Origin: Nostoc carneum NIES-2107
GTDB lineage: Bacteria > Cyanobacteriota > Cyanobacteriia > Cyanobacteriales > Nostocaceae
Direction of reading: 5' to 3'
DNA length: 64,000 bases
NCBI GenBank assembly: GCA_002368155.1
Contig: AP018180.1
Location: forward strand, 1,302,001 to 1,366,000
Position 1 is the stretch's first letter. Every line of letters begins with the position of its first letter. The notes below the pieces were generated by a model, which saw nothing but the letters and a program-made list of their open reading frames with translations, did not search any database and was not told the origin of the DNA. The position numbers and the translations under genes are program-made. Shown piece by piece: positions 7,881 through 11,175 of the stretch.

Positions 7881-7985
7881 AATCTATCAACAAACTACCA
7901 CAACATTACGCTTGTTTAACTTGCGAAAATATTTATCTGTTAGCCATCATAGGCAAGACAATAGAGTTCTTGATATGAGGATGCA

Positions 7986-8027
7986 TAAAAAAAGAGCGGT
8001 GCCTACGGTATTAAACTACGCTCTTTT
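7986..8027 (-). terminator. Intrinsic terminator of the Ro / tRNA-like RNA transcription unit
   Basis: Read on the minus strand, AAAAGAGCG pairs with CGCTCTTTT (9 pairs) and the stem runs into TTTTTTT. It lies 40 bases beyond the last tRNA-like RNA, so it is well placed to end the whole unit. Confidence 0.75.
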
Positions 8028-8066
8028 ATACCACTACATTTAAGGTAATCAATAAAAAATCAAAAA

Positions 8067-8173
8067 GGCGGGTGCGGGAATTGAACCCGCTATCCCCAGA
8101 ATGGTGGAGATACAACCGATAACCCTAAGTTCTTCGGCCTCAAAAGGCAAGTTGCGAACCAGGATAACCCGCC
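8067..8173 (-). ncRNA. tRNA-like RNA with Y-RNA-type hairpin, no D arm (element A)
   Basis: A 7-bp acceptor stem (GGCGGGT/ACCCGCC) and a normal T arm (GCGGG TTCAATT CCCGC) are intact. The place of the D arm is taken by an insert starting TCCTGG and holding the Y-like motif GGCCGAAGAA..TAGGGTTATCGG (plus-strand 8117-8139). TATCC beside the acceptor pairs with GGATA next to the T arm. The remaining anticodon-like stem has no regular 7-base loop, so it cannot be a normal tRNA. It lies about 75 bases downstream of the Ro gene and 40 before the terminator. Most likely it is a Ro-binding Y RNA derived from a tRNA (inference). Confidence 0.75.
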
Positions 8174-8248
8174 ATGAAGTATGAGGGTTGAAGAATAAAG
8201 GATGAAAATTTTTGGATTTTACCCTTTATTCTTTATGCTTGACCCTTT

Positions 8249-9853
8249 TTACAGTTCGCCTGTAGCTAGCATCTGGATGATGCGAGGTGTTCCAGGGTCG
8301 AACCCTGCTAAATCCCAAGAAAGAGGATCTTGAGGATCTACTAAGGTAATGTTGTAAGGTGCAAGGGTGACATACACTGCCTTAGCATTAGGGTTTACCT
8401 TCTGGCGATACTGTGCTAATGCTTGACTGGGATGTTTATGACCAGCCCATGACTCATTGTCAGTCCAAAAGCAAACTACATCTGCTTTGAACTTGTTCTT
8501 AATCATCCAGTCGTAAGCCACAGAAGCATCTGTACCACCAAAGTTTTGATTGCTAGCTTTGCGAAGTGCTGAACTAAAAGTATCTTTAGCGGTGATACCT
8601 AGTTCTCTAAATTCGGTTGCAAAGCCACGAATCATGTAATTTTTCTCAGCTTTTGCTGTTACTAGCGCCATTGTAGTAGCTATTTCACAGCAGCTTAAAC
8701 CCACTGAATCCACCACACCCCAAGACATAGAGCCAGAAATATCCACAGCGTGCATGAAAACTTTGCCTGTAGGTTGTACGACATCAAAAGATAGTTCTAG
8801 TGCTTTTTCTAAGATGTCTACAATTCGTGGAACTGGTTCCCAAGTTTTCTGGCTGCGCCCTAATCTACCACCAGATTGATAGGTTTTGAGGGCTTTCAAA
8901 ACATCAATCGGATGTATGCGACCTTTACGCAGATGTTCTTGATGATTGAGAACTGCTTCTACTCGCTGAAGATTGGCACTTTCATCAGCTCGTAGCACGC
9001 CTAGTTCTGTCAAAGAACCAAGGTTACGCAGCATTGCACCGATGGGCATTTCTTGGAAAAGTAGCTGCCAAGCTTGTTTATCCATTTTAGCGACAGGTGC
9101 AGCCATTTCGTGGGTGAGACGACCTTGTGCGATCGCAGTGTGGGTTTCGCTAGGGTTGCGTTTTAACCACTCATACCACCAAATCTGCGCTAAGGCTTCT
9201 GAGGGGATGTCTGCTGGTAAATCTTCCCAACCTTTGACTACCCACTCAAATAGTTCTCGGTGAGTTTCTGTAGGTGGTTTGACATGGAACAACCGCAATG
9301 CATCTCTGTGAGAGAAGCCTTGACGCTGTTGATATTTCAACAGTTGATAAGCTAAACCTTTGACATCTTCACGCGATAGCCAAGTTTTACCAGCTTCGCG
9401 CACCACCTTACCAAATCCCCGCAGAGATTTAGTGTAGTTCAGCCATTCATAGAAGTGGCTACCAGTTCGGACAACTTGCCCAAATATTTCCGCAAATGCC
9501 TTTTTCGCTTCTGGTGTTTCACCCATCGATAGCAAAACTAAAGCCAATATAGGCGCACTGTTATTGATAGCGCGGCCATCGCTAGCATAGAGAATTTCTT
9601 CTGCAACCCGCCCAGGATTTTCTGCTACAGCTTGCTTAACAACATTTACAAAATCTTCTGTTAGTTCCTGTTTGCCAGCATAGTAAGTGCTTTTTGCTGT
9701 CCCAATTAATAGACAACGGCGCAGCATTTTCCAAATACCAGCCTCAAACATATATCCGCCGGAACGCCCCTTAACCATCTCTGCTTCCCGTCCGGTGATA
9801 GGCTGAGTTTGCGGTGTATTTGTTTTCTTTTTAGTAAAGAAATTATAATTCAT
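8249..9853 (-). CDS. rsr: Ro60-family RNA-binding protein (TROVE + vWA), bacterial Rsr
   Basis: 534 residues. Residues about 20-350 are the TROVE HEAT-like ring (family features such as GGYMFEAGIWKMLRRCLLIG, LRGFGKVVREAGKTW, MPIGAMLRNL). Residues 365-534 are a vWA domain whose metal site is VDISGSMS (Asp371, Ser373, Ser375), with FGGTDAS and FWTDNES completing it. Ro60 rings hold misfolded or structured RNAs and bind Y RNAs. In Deinococcus the Rsr-Y RNA complex works with PNPase in RNA processing and stress survival. Here the gene sits within an array of six tRNA-like RNAs bearing Y-type hairpins, all on the same strand, so those are the obvious partners. GGGAG lies 8 bases before the ATG, directly beside a Y-like hairpin. 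Confidence 0.95.
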   Translation of the reverse strand: MNYNFFTKKKTNTPQTQPITGREAEMVKGRSGGYMFEAGIWKMLRRCLLIGTAKSTYYAGKQELTEDFVNVVKQAVAENPGRVAEEILYASDGRAINNSAPILALVLLSMGETPEAKKAFAEIFGQVVRTGSHFYEWLNYTKSLRGFGKVVREAGKTWLSREDVKGLAYQLLKYQQRQGFSHRDALRLFHVKPPTETHRELFEWVVKGWEDLPADIPSEALAQIWWYEWLKRNPSETHTAIAQGRLTHEMAAPVAKMDKQAWQLLFQEMPIGAMLRNLGSLTELGVLRADESANLQRVEAVLNHQEHLRKGRIHPIDVLKALKTYQSGGRLGRSQKTWEPVPRIVDILEKALELSFDVVQPTGKVFMHAVDISGSMSWGVVDSVGLSCCEIATTMALVTAKAEKNYMIRGFATEFRELGITAKDTFSSALRKASNQNFGGTDASVAYDWMIKNKFKADVVCFWTDNESWAGHKHPSQALAQYRQKVNPNAKAVYVTLAPYNITLVDPQDPLSWDLAGFDPGTPRIIQMLATGEL

Positions 9854-9861
9854 AGCTTTAA

Positions 9862-9879
9862 CTCCCGGCCCTTACGGGC
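9862..9879 (-). promoter_or_regulatory. Y-RNA-like hairpin abutting the rsr Shine-Dalgarno
   Basis: Minus strand reads TTGCCCGTAAGGGCCGGGAG: stem GCCC/GGGC with a GTAA loop, then a C in the bulged-C position, then the GGGAG ribosome-binding site (9862-9866). The first 16 bases match element 6 of the array with one difference. Binding of Ro here would cover the ribosome site, suggesting autoregulation (inference). Confidence 0.5.
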
Positions 9880-9891
9880 AAAAATAAAAGG

Positions 9892-10014
9892 TGGCAGGGC
9901 AGGACTCGAACCTGCGACATCCCGCTTGGAAGGCGATAACCCTCATTCTTCGGCCTTTACAGGCAAGGGGTGAACAAGGATGTTTTAGGCGCTCTACCAC
10001 TGAGCTACCTGCCA
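9892..10014 (-). tRNA. tRNA-Gly(TCC) interrupted by a 52-nt Y-RNA-like insert (element B)
   Basis: Splitting the gene as 10014-9988 plus 9935-9892 gives a perfect 71-base cloverleaf. Acceptor TGGCAGG/CCTGCCA, D arm GCTC/GAGC with GG in the loop, anticodon stem CCCGC/GCGGG with loop CTTCCAA (anticodon TCC), variable ATGTC, and T arm GCAGG TTCGAGT CCTGC. The 52-base insert (9987-9936) falls between positions 28 and 29 of the anticodon stem. It contains a GCCT-GTAA-AGGC hairpin and the motif GGCCGAAGAATGAGGGTTAT. ACATCC in the insert can alternatively pair with GGATGT next to the T arm. No CCA is encoded, and U1-A72 with C73 is unusual. It could be a split tRNA needing removal of the insert, or a Ro-binding Y RNA. 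Confidence 0.8.
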
Positions 10015-10090
10015 CATGAAGAATTTTAGATTTTGGATTTTGAATTTTAGATTAGAGATTTGAAATTAAATGTCCAATCAATTGGAATTT

Positions 10091-10232
10091 TGGCGGGTGA
10101 GGTAGGATTTGAACCTACAACCGATGAATTGACGATAACCCTCGACTCGTCGGCCTTTTCAGGCAAGGTTGTGAACCAAGGACTATGGGTAATTAACCCG
10201 TTCATTGCTCTATCCAGTTGAGCTACACACCC
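10091..10232 (-). tRNA. tRNA-like RNA (Asp GTC-like) with Y-type insert and encoded CCA (element 3)
   Basis: Acceptor GGGTGTG/CTCACCC (one T-T mismatch), G73 and an encoded CCA; D arm GCTC AACTGGATA GAGC; anticodon stem ATGAA/TTCAT; T arm GTAGG TTCAAAT CCTAC. Unlike the Gly and Pro members, the insert lies in the anticodon loop, after position 31. It begins with an extra GGGTTAATTACCC hairpin and carries the Y-like motif GGCCGACGAGTCGAGGGTTA (plus strand 10133-10155). The bases before the 3' stem strand read GTCAA, which would be Asp, but the expected U33 is not visible, so the identity is uncertain. Confidence 0.7.
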
Positions 10233-10268
10233 ACGTAACAATTCAAAATTCAAAATTAAGTTTAGGTG

Positions 10269-10402
10269 TGGCGGAGCAGGAATTGAACCTGCAAAACCTT
10301 GCGGTTGCTAGATTACGATAACCCTCAACTCTTCGTCCCTTTCGGGCAAGGTGATGAATTAAGGTTTTTTTCAAGTGCGTTTACCAATTTCGCCATCCGC
10401 CA
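10269..10402 (-). tRNA. Class II (Leu-like) tRNA-like RNA with Y-type insert (element 4)
   Basis: Acceptor TGGCGGA/TCCGCCA, Leu-type D arm GCG AAATTGGTAAA CGC, a long variable arm AACC GCAA GGTT and T arm GCAGG TTCAATT CCTGC. The anticodon stem is CTTGA/TCTAG with one mismatch, and its loop is broken by an insert containing GGGACGAAGAGTTGAGGGTT (plus strand 10316-10339). The loop bases left after the insert (TCGTAA) do not give a clean Leu anticodon, so decoding ability is doubtful. AAAACC in the insert can pair with GGTTTT before the T stem, as in the sister genes. Confidence 0.65.
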
Positions 10403-10471
10403 CATGAACAGTTATGAGTTGTGAGTGCTGAGTTATGAGTAAAAAATTTAAAACTCAGTACTAATTTTGGG

Positions 10472-10592
10472 TGGCGGGGCAGGAATCGAACCTGCGACCT
10501 CTCGAACCCAAATCGATAACCCTCATTCGTCGGCCTTTGCAGGCAAGGGGTGAAAAAGGATGTTTAGCGCTCTACCACTGAGCCACCCGCCA
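10472..10592 (-). tRNA. tRNA-Pro(TGG) interrupted by a 50-nt Y-RNA-like insert (element 5)
   Basis: Joining 10592-10566 to 10515-10472 gives a perfect 71-base cloverleaf. Acceptor TGGCGGG/CCCGCCA, D arm GCTC/GAGC, anticodon stem CTCGA/TCGAG with loop TTTGGGT (anticodon TGG), variable AGGTC, T arm GCAGG TTCGATT CCTGC. The 50-base insert (10565-10516) occupies exactly the same 28/29 position as in the Gly gene and is closely related to it: GCCT-GCAA-AGGC hairpin, bulged C, then GACGAATGAGGGTTAT. No CCA is encoded, and U1-A72 with C73 is shared with the Gly gene. Whether the insert is removed is unknown. Confidence 0.8.
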
Positions 10593-10627
10593 CATAACAA
10601 TTCAAAATTCAAAATTAAGTTTAGGTG

Positions 10628-10756
10628 TAGCAGAGCAGGATTTTCACCTGCACCTCCAGAATTGGAATCAAGGATGTTTTGTGTTATTTGCGGTAACCCT
10701 CGATATGTCGGCCCTTGCGGGCAAGGTGGGCGCTCTGGTATTTGAGCTATCCGCTA
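10628..10756 (-). ncRNA. Degenerate tRNA-like RNA (Trp CCA-like) with Y-type hairpin (element 6)
   Basis: First RNA of the array. Acceptor TAGCGGA/TCTGCTA pairs fully and the D stem GCTC/GAGC is present, but the D loop (AAATACCA) lacks GG and the T loop reads TGAAAAT, so the elbow contacts of a tRNA are lost. The Y-like hairpin (TTGCCCGCAAGGGCCGACAT, then GAGGGTTACCG; plus strand 10691-10714) comes directly after the D arm. A complete anticodon-like arm CTTGA TTCCAAT TCTGG (CCA) follows it. The hairpin is thus placed before the anticodon arm, a different position from elements B and 5. It is probably a Y-type RNA, not a working tRNA. Confidence 0.7.
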
Positions 10757-10799
10757 CGGTTGAAAGCTTACTCCTTTTGGAACATCGCCTTGTATTCTT

Positions 10800-10828
10800 A
10801 ATGTAGTATATGTAATACAATGTGTCAA
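10800..10828 (-). promoter_or_regulatory. Sigma70-type promoter of the tRNA-like / rsr unit
   Basis: Minus strand TTGACA (10828-10823), a 17-base spacer, then TACATT (10805-10800). The start should fall near 10793, about 37 bases before element 6. I see no comparable promoter between the array members, so one transcript may cover all RNAs and rsr. Confidence 0.7.
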
Positions 10829-10990
10829 GTGTTTATTTTGAGAATTAGGATTTGGTATTTGGCAAAGGGAAAAAGAAATAGAAAGTTCGGCAATGAGCGA
10901 TCGCTCTTTCCTTGTAACCGCTGTACTACTACAAGAGATGGACTCCAGCGCGCTTGTTTTTATGGTATTATTTTATACTTTATATTTTTA

Positions 10991-11175
10991 TTTTTGCCTG
11001 TGACAAGACTTTGGCAAAAATGAATTTTCCTGGCAAAAGCTTTGCAATCAGGTCAATTCAAGCTCAAAATTTTGCCGAATCTTGGGGCTATGTACAGTGT
11101 ATAAGAATCACTGATGTTATATTTTTCCAACAAATTTGCCAAAGGATACAAAAAAATGTCACAATTTTTGCCAAG
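10991..11175 (+). promoter_or_regulatory. Cluster of TTTTGCCAA / TTGGCAAAA sites upstream of a membrane HTH-like protein
   Basis: Within 185 bases the motif or its complement appears as TTTTTGCC (10991), TTTGGCAAAAA (11010), TGGCAAAA (11031), TTTTGCCGA (11070), ATTTGCCAAA (11135) and TTTTTGCCAAG (11165). Two more lie just after the gene (near 11978-11996). This density suggests binding sites, but the factor is unknown. The rest of the 10829-11214 gap shows nothing clear. Confidence 0.35.

Follow-up and report, generated by a model that had tools for sequence, protein, structure and literature searches.

Predicted Y RNAs with the order of parts of a tRNA, arrayed around the Ro60 gene of Nostoc carneum NIES-2107

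The bacterial Y RNA YrlA is a circular permutation of a tRNA, with the stem that holds the Ro60 orthologue Rsr at its 5′ and 3′ ends (PMC11472068, PMC8394870), and it joins tRNA-like D, T and acceptor elements to this Rsr-holding stem (PMC8394870). Within the RYPER complex a Y RNA tethers Rsr to PNPase (PMC8394870), and the rsr-yrlBA-rtcBA operon of Salmonella is regulated by damaged tRNA, with a decoy role suggested for YrlA (PMC7790460). The array described here lies in a stretch of 64,000 nucleotides from the cyanobacterium Nostoc carneum NIES-2107 (contig AP018180.1, positions 1,302,001 to 1,366,000; this whole stretch is the window, to which coordinates without a prefix refer) and consists of six tRNA-like RNAs around rsr, the gene of a Ro60 orthologue. 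It is very likely, to judge from sequence, that these RNAs form a Y RNA family holding Rsr; they are predicted to keep the normal order of tRNA parts, with the anticodon region interrupted or replaced by a helix of the Ro60-binding type.

Six tRNA-like RNAs around rsr

All six RNAs lie on the strand of rsr and span 2.7 kb (8066–10756), their ends being taken as the first acceptor base and the base after the 3′ strand of the acceptor. In the order of transcription on the minus strand, a possible promoter is followed by five tRNA-like RNAs (10756–9891), rsr (9853–8249), a sixth RNA (8173–8066) and a U-rich run; the preliminary description of this DNA, which reported six minus-strand RNAs, five before and one after a TROVE + vWA gene, had located every one of them correctly. 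Scores are given below for R2, a covariance model of the inserted Ro helix, and for a second model, R1; because ordinary tRNAs reach as much as 44 bits with R1, counting relied on R2.

Four of the RNAs belong to the class termed 'main'. Y RNA 2 (10471–10592; Ro helix 10513–10566; R2 71.2 bits, R1 126.2 bits) continues after its Ro helix into a 4-bp anticodon-like hairpin, TCGA-TTTGGGT-TCGA, and has an acceptor of 8 bp when the pair G-1:C73 is counted, with CCA encoded after C73. Y RNA 5 (9891–10014; Ro helix 9933–9986; R2 74.8 bits, R1 130.2 bits) has the anticodon-like hairpin TCGC-CTTCCAA-GCGG, and both its halves are 85% identical to the tRNA-Ala(TGC) of the host. Y RNA 3 (10268–10402; Ro helix 10315–10370; R2 62.3 bits, R1 105.1 bits) is distinguished by a tRNA-Leu-like 5′ end (85%), a long variable region, a 3-bp D stem and a bulged A instead of C, and Y RNA 4 (10094–10232; Ro helix 10132–10187; R2 61.5 bits, R1 96.5 bits) by a 5-bp anticodon stem, ATGAA/TTCAT, that is kept around the insert. 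Y RNA 1 represents class 'one' (10627–10756; R2 24.1 bits, R1 42 bits); it has an acceptor, a D arm, a Ro hairpin within 10690–10744 and an abnormal T loop (TGAAAAT), and CCUUGAU, the partner strand of its upper stem, follows the Ro hairpin instead of preceding it. Y RNA 6, downstream of rsr, belongs to class 'Z' (8066–8173; Ro helix 8116–8170; R2 65.7 bits, R1 58.1 bits) and is built of acceptor, Ro helix, a hairpin in the place of the variable arm, and T arm, without a D arm.

Acceptor and T arm were thus found in all six RNAs, as the preliminary description had it, the acceptor with 7 bp (6 of 7 pairs in Y RNA 4), and a D arm in five; since the framing of the RNAs relied on acceptor and T arm, the finding of these two is in part built in. 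The inserted helix follows in four of the six, with small departures, the pattern CCUUNUUC - 5 to 7 nt - UUG - CCY - NNNN - RGG - (C/A) - CGA - N - GARUNAGG - GUUAUCG, of which Y RNA 1 and Y RNA 6 have variants. Its parts are those of a Ro60 site, with CGA/UUG pairs, a single bulged base, a capped stem of only 3 bp, an asymmetric internal loop, the upper stem and UUAUC. The bulged base is C in five of the window RNAs and A in one, and the tail reads UUACC in one RNA and UUAUC in the others. The insert consensus first proposed holds in part: its opening GGCCGA occurs in five of the six, and departures are seen in Y RNA 3 (GGGACGA, with the bulged A), Y RNA 1 (GGTTACCG) and Y RNA 6 (CTTAGGGTTATCG); likewise, the cap GCCT-GNAA-AGGC fits Y RNAs 2, 4 and 5, and the others read GCCC-GCAA-GGGC, GCCC-GAAA-GGG and GCCT-TTTG-AGGC. 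The full hairpin-plus-tail motif, with any base allowed in the bulge, has eight matches in the 64-kb window, six of which are these RNAs; the remaining two (+41438 and -9414) carry T and G bulges. With the tail motif loosened to at most two mismatches, the six are among 24 window matches.

The rsr open reading frame (8249–9853, minus strand) encodes 534 amino acids with TROVE and vWA domains (Pfam vWA_Ro60, 8.6e-39; TROVE, 5.2e-19); it is related to Rsr of D. radiodurans (2NVO, 2.6e-79) and to Ro of Xenopus (1YVP, 4.5e-72), so that both domain content and likeness to known Rsr and Ro60 identify it as a Ro60 orthologue. Just 5′ of the array, a possible sigma-70 promoter, TTGACA-17-TACATT (10800–10828, minus strand), has 10 of 12 consensus bases; it is a weak candidate, since the region contains three promoter-like sites, fewer than the mean of 5.1 in shuffled sequence. 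The U-rich run seen in the sequence directly 3′ of the Y RNA 6 acceptor (8051–8065, minus strand) could be the transcript end; a terminator scan reported none.

Linkage to rsr, fold and covariation across genomes

In a sample of 386 genomes of the cyanobacterial phylum, R2 (threshold E ≤0.01) matched 37: 33 of the 40 that have rsr and 4 of the 346 that lack it (Fisher 1.8e-36, with kinship ignored). The preliminary description had judged six copies beside a Ro gene hard to explain by chance, and these genome-wide linkage tests settled the matter in its favour; the wide occurrence of the insert in genomes without rsr, which it had named as evidence to the contrary, was not found with R2, whose matches cluster beside rsr, a result repeated in an order of Bacillota (see below). 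Nearly all matches (107 of 112) fall within about 4 kb of rsr, so that the RNAs are encoded beside rsr as YrlA-type RNAs are; strand and side relative to rsr are constant over 28 loci, and up to seven RNAs occur at one locus (L040). The four matched genomes without rsr comprise two with relic-like copies (G385, G048) and two whose matches look like chance by sequence (G010, G152). Worn or incomplete Ro helices were noted at G385:C1:2448129-2448182, at G048:C483:7323-7376 and, far from rsr, at G143:C3:861365-861420.

An exact-pattern scan of named genome contigs yielded at least 115 stretches; among the 80 loci listed, 73 are cyanobacterial by title, ranging from Nostoc and Calothrix to Pseudanabaena and a metagenome-assembled genome of Gloeobacterales, and seven are from other bacteria. 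Clear R2 matches together with rsr were found at three of these seven, two in Chloroflexota (L101, L175) and one in Lihuaxuella thermophila of the Bacillota (L174); in the stretches searched, the other four had no rsr, and no R2 match except a weak one at L149 (22.8 bits, E 0.014). Within the Bacillota order of Lihuaxuella, R2 matched 4 of 42 genomes, all of them among the five with rsr (hypergeometric 4.5e-5); each of the four has between one and four matches (E 0.01) immediately upstream of rsr. Since the Rsr proteins of these four genomes are 67–76% identical to that of the window, transfer between phyla is likely. Among 251 genomes of Chloroflexota, R2 matched the two already known and no others.

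The fold was studied in a curated set of 80 RNAs (52 'main', 13 class 'one' and 15 class Z), collected with the motif UUG...[AC]CGA plus a near-GGTTAYC and framed by acceptor and T arm. The bulged base of the Ro60-binding stem is C in 73 and A in seven; the motif allowed these two bases only, and a search with any base gave others only in matches judged spurious. The strand opposite the CGA/UUG pairs mostly has five unpaired nucleotides (5–7 columns) facing a single base (alignment A1), and TTATC is present in 74 of the 80, a near match to it being part of the search motif. When the Ro helix was aligned (67 sequences, 63 distinct), 93.2% of cells were paired, compared to 33–60% in slid versions, and two-sided changes occurred in 29 cells versus 11.8 in shuffles; one upper-stem pair, between columns 11 and 47, fails in 29 of the 63 sequences. 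For class 'one', the upper stem formed with the downstream strand pairs in 89 of 91 cells, versus 30–57% when slid, and a C-G pair has changed to U-A in two RNAs; of class Z, 14 of the 15 RNAs were aligned, and the D arm is absent.

For the full-length fold, 37 of the 52 'main' RNAs were picked by hand. Unguided RNAalifold returned the acceptor, the D arm, the upper Ro helix, the capped stem and the T arm, with two-sided changes in 15 of 28 pairs; the anticodon-like hairpin was missing from its output. Once this hairpin and the Ro register were specified, 95.9% of cells were paired, and 92 cells had two-sided changes, versus 25.8 in shuffles. RNAalifold pairs the capped stem as GCCY/RGGC, which places the bulge of members with C at either of two neighbouring C residues; the seven A-bulge members fix the register that matches animal Y RNAs.

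Directly 3′ of the Ro helix, 24 of the 52 'main' RNAs have an anticodon-like hairpin (stem of at least 4 bp, 7-nt loop), with the insert end UCGN taken into its stem; dealing the strands among RNAs and rechoosing the frame gave 7.7 (standard deviation 2.2, maximum 16 in 1000 rounds), and with one fixed frame 23 were found and 7.3 expected. In that fixed frame, 38 of the 52 have U33 and 44 a purine at position 37. Among the 37 chosen RNAs the hairpin shows 91% pairing and covariation of its inner pair (CG 18, AU 13, UA 2). The loop letters vary between relatives, and for this reason the hairpin is read as a structural remnant or a bait, not as a decoding device. At the acceptor end, G-1:C73 together with U1-A72 is present in 40 of the 52 'main' RNAs and in 12 of the 13 from class 'one', and CCA is encoded in 10 of the 52 'main'; G-1:C73 is a mark of tRNA-His, which these RNAs may mimic.

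Proposed function, rival explanations and origin

The RNAs would be cut from the rsr transcript in the way that tRNAs are, and the Ro helix would dock on Rsr, leaving the tRNA-like body free. For tRNA-handling enzymes, or for a nuclease such as PNPase, this body might be a handle or a decoy, and it might gate the access of Rsr to damaged structured RNA or tRNA; several variants in a genome could provide Rsr with several handles.

A number of points weigh against regarding the array as a Y RNA family. Binding to Rsr and expression of the RNAs are predicted from sequence. With lax filters the Rfam tRNA model accepts Y RNA 4 at 48 bits (family cut-off 29), and the anticodon-like loops in nearly half of the 'main' RNAs leave room for a role related to translation. 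The ends of the array RNAs form a tRNA acceptor stem, whereas the paired 5′ and 3′ ends of described Y RNAs make the Ro60 stem. The search demanded the motif and the arms, so their conservation is partly due to selection; of the 88 framed matches, manual inspection removed eight (three spurious, five with a plausible hairpin in the wrong frame), and 24 of the 37 RNAs used for the full-length fold had been chosen for the anticodon-like hairpin. The Fisher test treats related genomes as independent. Seven of the 40 genomes with rsr have no R2 match, namely five of other classes, G127 with a divergent Rsr, and G030 with rsr at a contig end; the curated set, finally, holds nothing from 12 of the 40 rsr loci, five of which have R2 matches (L043, L055, L059, L064, L070).

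A different function for much the same molecules is unlikely, yet deserves some weight: the RNAs could be Rsr-linked decoys or sensors for tRNA-damaging enzymes, with the hairpins as bait for anticodon nucleases and with Rsr and a ligase or nuclease handling the cut product. This possibility overlaps with the preferred one and differs from it in function. The excess of anticodon-like hairpins over dealt strands and the covariation of their inner pair point in this direction, as do the regulation of the Salmonella operon by damaged tRNA and the suggested decoy role of YrlA (PMC7790460), and the host genome contains three RtcB matches (G000:C1 at 7139148, 4652766 and 402394). However, no fixed anticodon is kept, the loop sequence differing between relatives; the hairpin evidence comes from the 52 'main' RNAs among the 80; and none of the three RtcB matches is near rsr.

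Inserts very probably of the same kind have been interpreted in print as introns. A study of 2017 describes 'group I introns' of 38 and 49 nt in the tRNA-Gly(TCC) of Nostoc PCC 7107 and the tRNA-Lys(CTT) of Gloeocapsa PCC 73106, which share the motifs TTxxC, CTTGxCT, AAGxC, GAAGAAT and GG; the term 'Y RNA' is absent from its text (PMC5733544). The identification rests on comparing the two genes by their published motifs: Y RNA 5 contains all five in order, and TCC and CTT occur among the anticodon-like loops found here (the CTT loops on a stem of 2 bp only). The preliminary description had regarded the array as undescribed in cyanobacteria, and a literature search on Y RNAs and Ro60 in cyanobacteria indeed gave, among the titles listed, no description of these RNAs as Y RNAs; that search did not cover the main papers on bacterial Y RNAs, which leaves priority uncertain, and two such inserts had very probably been seen before, as introns.

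That the array consists of intron-bearing tRNA genes, in which the hairpin is an anticodon-loop intron and the spliced product a working tRNA, is nonetheless very improbable. Four or five of the five anticodon pairs can be rebuilt in 15 of the 52 'main' RNAs (all five in seven), compared to 14.4% in shuffles, and the score of Y RNA 4 would also suit a tRNA; yet 37 of the 52 cannot rebuild even four of five canonical pairs, and an intron would not be expected to be linked to rsr. These two observations mainly led to the rejection of introns. Moreover, no Rfam group I intron was found by a default scan of the window or a lax search of 7900–11000, ARAGORN calls no tRNA in the window, class Z RNAs lack a D arm, and ordinary tRNAs are present elsewhere in the genome. 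Functional tRNAs were rejected as well, on account of the canonical anticodon arm, of which four or five pairs exist in just those 15 'main' RNAs, Y RNA 4 among them; at about twice the shuffled rate, these rebuildable stems fit descent from tRNAs. A decaying tRNA array, with functionless pseudogenes that share a repeated insert, is likewise very improbable: worn members exist (the T loop of Y RNA 1, the relic-like copies in G385, G048 and G143), but acceptor, T arm and Ro helix all show compensatory changes, the RNAs keep one strand and one side with respect to rsr at 28 loci, and they have spread over a class and into another phylum.

The arrangement recurs in many other cyanobacteria and in a few bacteria not related to them, a hint that tRNAs can give rise to Y RNAs. 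The preliminary description had the Ro-binding stem inserted into several different tRNAs; the Leu-like 5′ end of Y RNA 3, the likeness of Y RNA 5 to tRNA-Ala(TGC) and the anticodon stem of Y RNA 4 speak for this without proving it, and duplication plus drift could also have produced the set. Assignment of parent tRNAs by identity is indicative only, and the 155 ARAGORN calls on overlapping loci are redundant, with 70 distinct sequences. In several genomes rsr itself lies among tRNAs: in a member of another class (G044; L070) it stands by 29 ARAGORN tRNA calls, with three R2 matches of 30.7, 18.8 and 15.5 bits; in a member of the Chloroflexota (L101) by 15 tRNAs, with two R2 matches; and in G127 (L041) a divergent rsr stands among 21 tRNAs without an R2 match. 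In yet another family, tRNAs with an insert in the T arm precede rsr in two of three rsr-bearing genomes (three copies at L065, eight at L068), and none were found in the third (L067, a contig of 6.7 kb). The T-arm inserts (L068:5250-6986 in G038; L065:5915-6300 in G018) are a repeated element of 24–25 nt with two hairpins (TTGCTTCGCAATCCGC...), and the anticodon arms look intact; the inserts lie between the 5′ strand of the T stem and the T loop, and as tRNA insertions beside Ro60 they are in this respect unlike the array RNAs. Elsewhere, the genome of the window has another array, which holds 25 tRNAs and lacks rsr (L251, G000:C1:4301656-4304278).

A scenario can be offered tentatively, although we would sooner doubt it than accept it: Y RNAs may arise from tRNAs in rsr-linked arrays, entry of the helix into the anticodon region giving RNAs in direct order and re-cutting of head-to-tail units in a new register giving the permuted YrlA; the Ro helix, with its bulged C, opposite bulge and UUAUC, would be the animal module, either kept or evolved again, bacterial Ro60 at its root would have been linked to tRNA arrays, and the T-arm inserts beside rsr in another class would be a second, independent solution. 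The idea of YrlA as a re-registered array unit follows from the occurrence of rsr among tRNA arrays and from YrlA being a permuted tRNA, the direction being a proposal. A Y RNA in tRNA order would be the form expected before circular permutation, which makes the origin of bacterial Y RNAs testable.

By this prediction many cyanobacteria would possess Ro60 RNPs, each genome encoding several Y RNAs, and the published reading of such inserts as tRNA introns is probably to be corrected. The prediction may also bear on the dramatic rise of TROVE transcripts with erythromycin in C. fritschii PCC 9212, which was noted as unexplained (PMC6424891). In PCC 6912, a named relative of that strain, two strong R2 matches and a weak one lie just upstream of rsr. 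Some of these cyanobacterial genera can be grown and altered in the laboratory.

Comparison with known Y RNAs

With YrlA (RF02553; Salmonella 6CU1) the array RNAs have in common that they are small RNAs encoded by rsr, with tRNA-like parts and a predicted Rsr stem. The order differs: the array RNAs run acceptor-D-insert-T-acceptor, with the acceptor at the ends and the Ro stem capped and internal, and are not permuted. A default Rfam scan of the window found no family; under lax settings the YrlA model (cut-off 69 bits) reached 24.2 and 21.1 bits at best, with hits in a permuted register that run from within one array RNA across the gap into the next. Further, the Rfam YrlA consensus has an unbroken terminal stem of 6 bp and lacks UUAUC, unlike the array RNAs. 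By model and by topology, the array RNAs are not members of YrlA.

The Rsr RNPs of D. radiodurans and Salmonella (RYPER; rsr-yrlBA-rtcBA) resemble the present system in combining an Rsr orthologue with neighbouring Y RNAs; here, however, the RNAs number up to seven per locus, and no RtcB match stands beside rsr. Likely Y RNAs have reportedly been noted near the Ro60 genes of over 250 species, which may include cyanobacteria.

Vertebrate Y RNAs and nematode stem-bulge RNAs (sbRNAs) share with the array RNAs the single bulged C in the lower stem and the upper stem, and vertebrate Y RNAs also the bulge on the opposite strand. Neither group is known to have a tRNA body. In animal Y RNAs the lower stem is formed by the ends of the RNA, whereas the array module is closed by a small loop and opens at its other end into the tRNA; for the bulged-C stem the comparison also draws on PMC4030889. 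UUAUC stands at the 5′ end of the loop in nematode sbRNAs (PMC4450293) and after the upper stem in the array RNAs. By bulged base, opposite bulge, UUAUC and adjacency to rsr, the array RNAs would thus appear to be a directly ordered variant of bacterial Y RNAs, and they have the bulged-C and UUAUC layout of nematode sbRNAs and, in part, of vertebrate Y RNAs.

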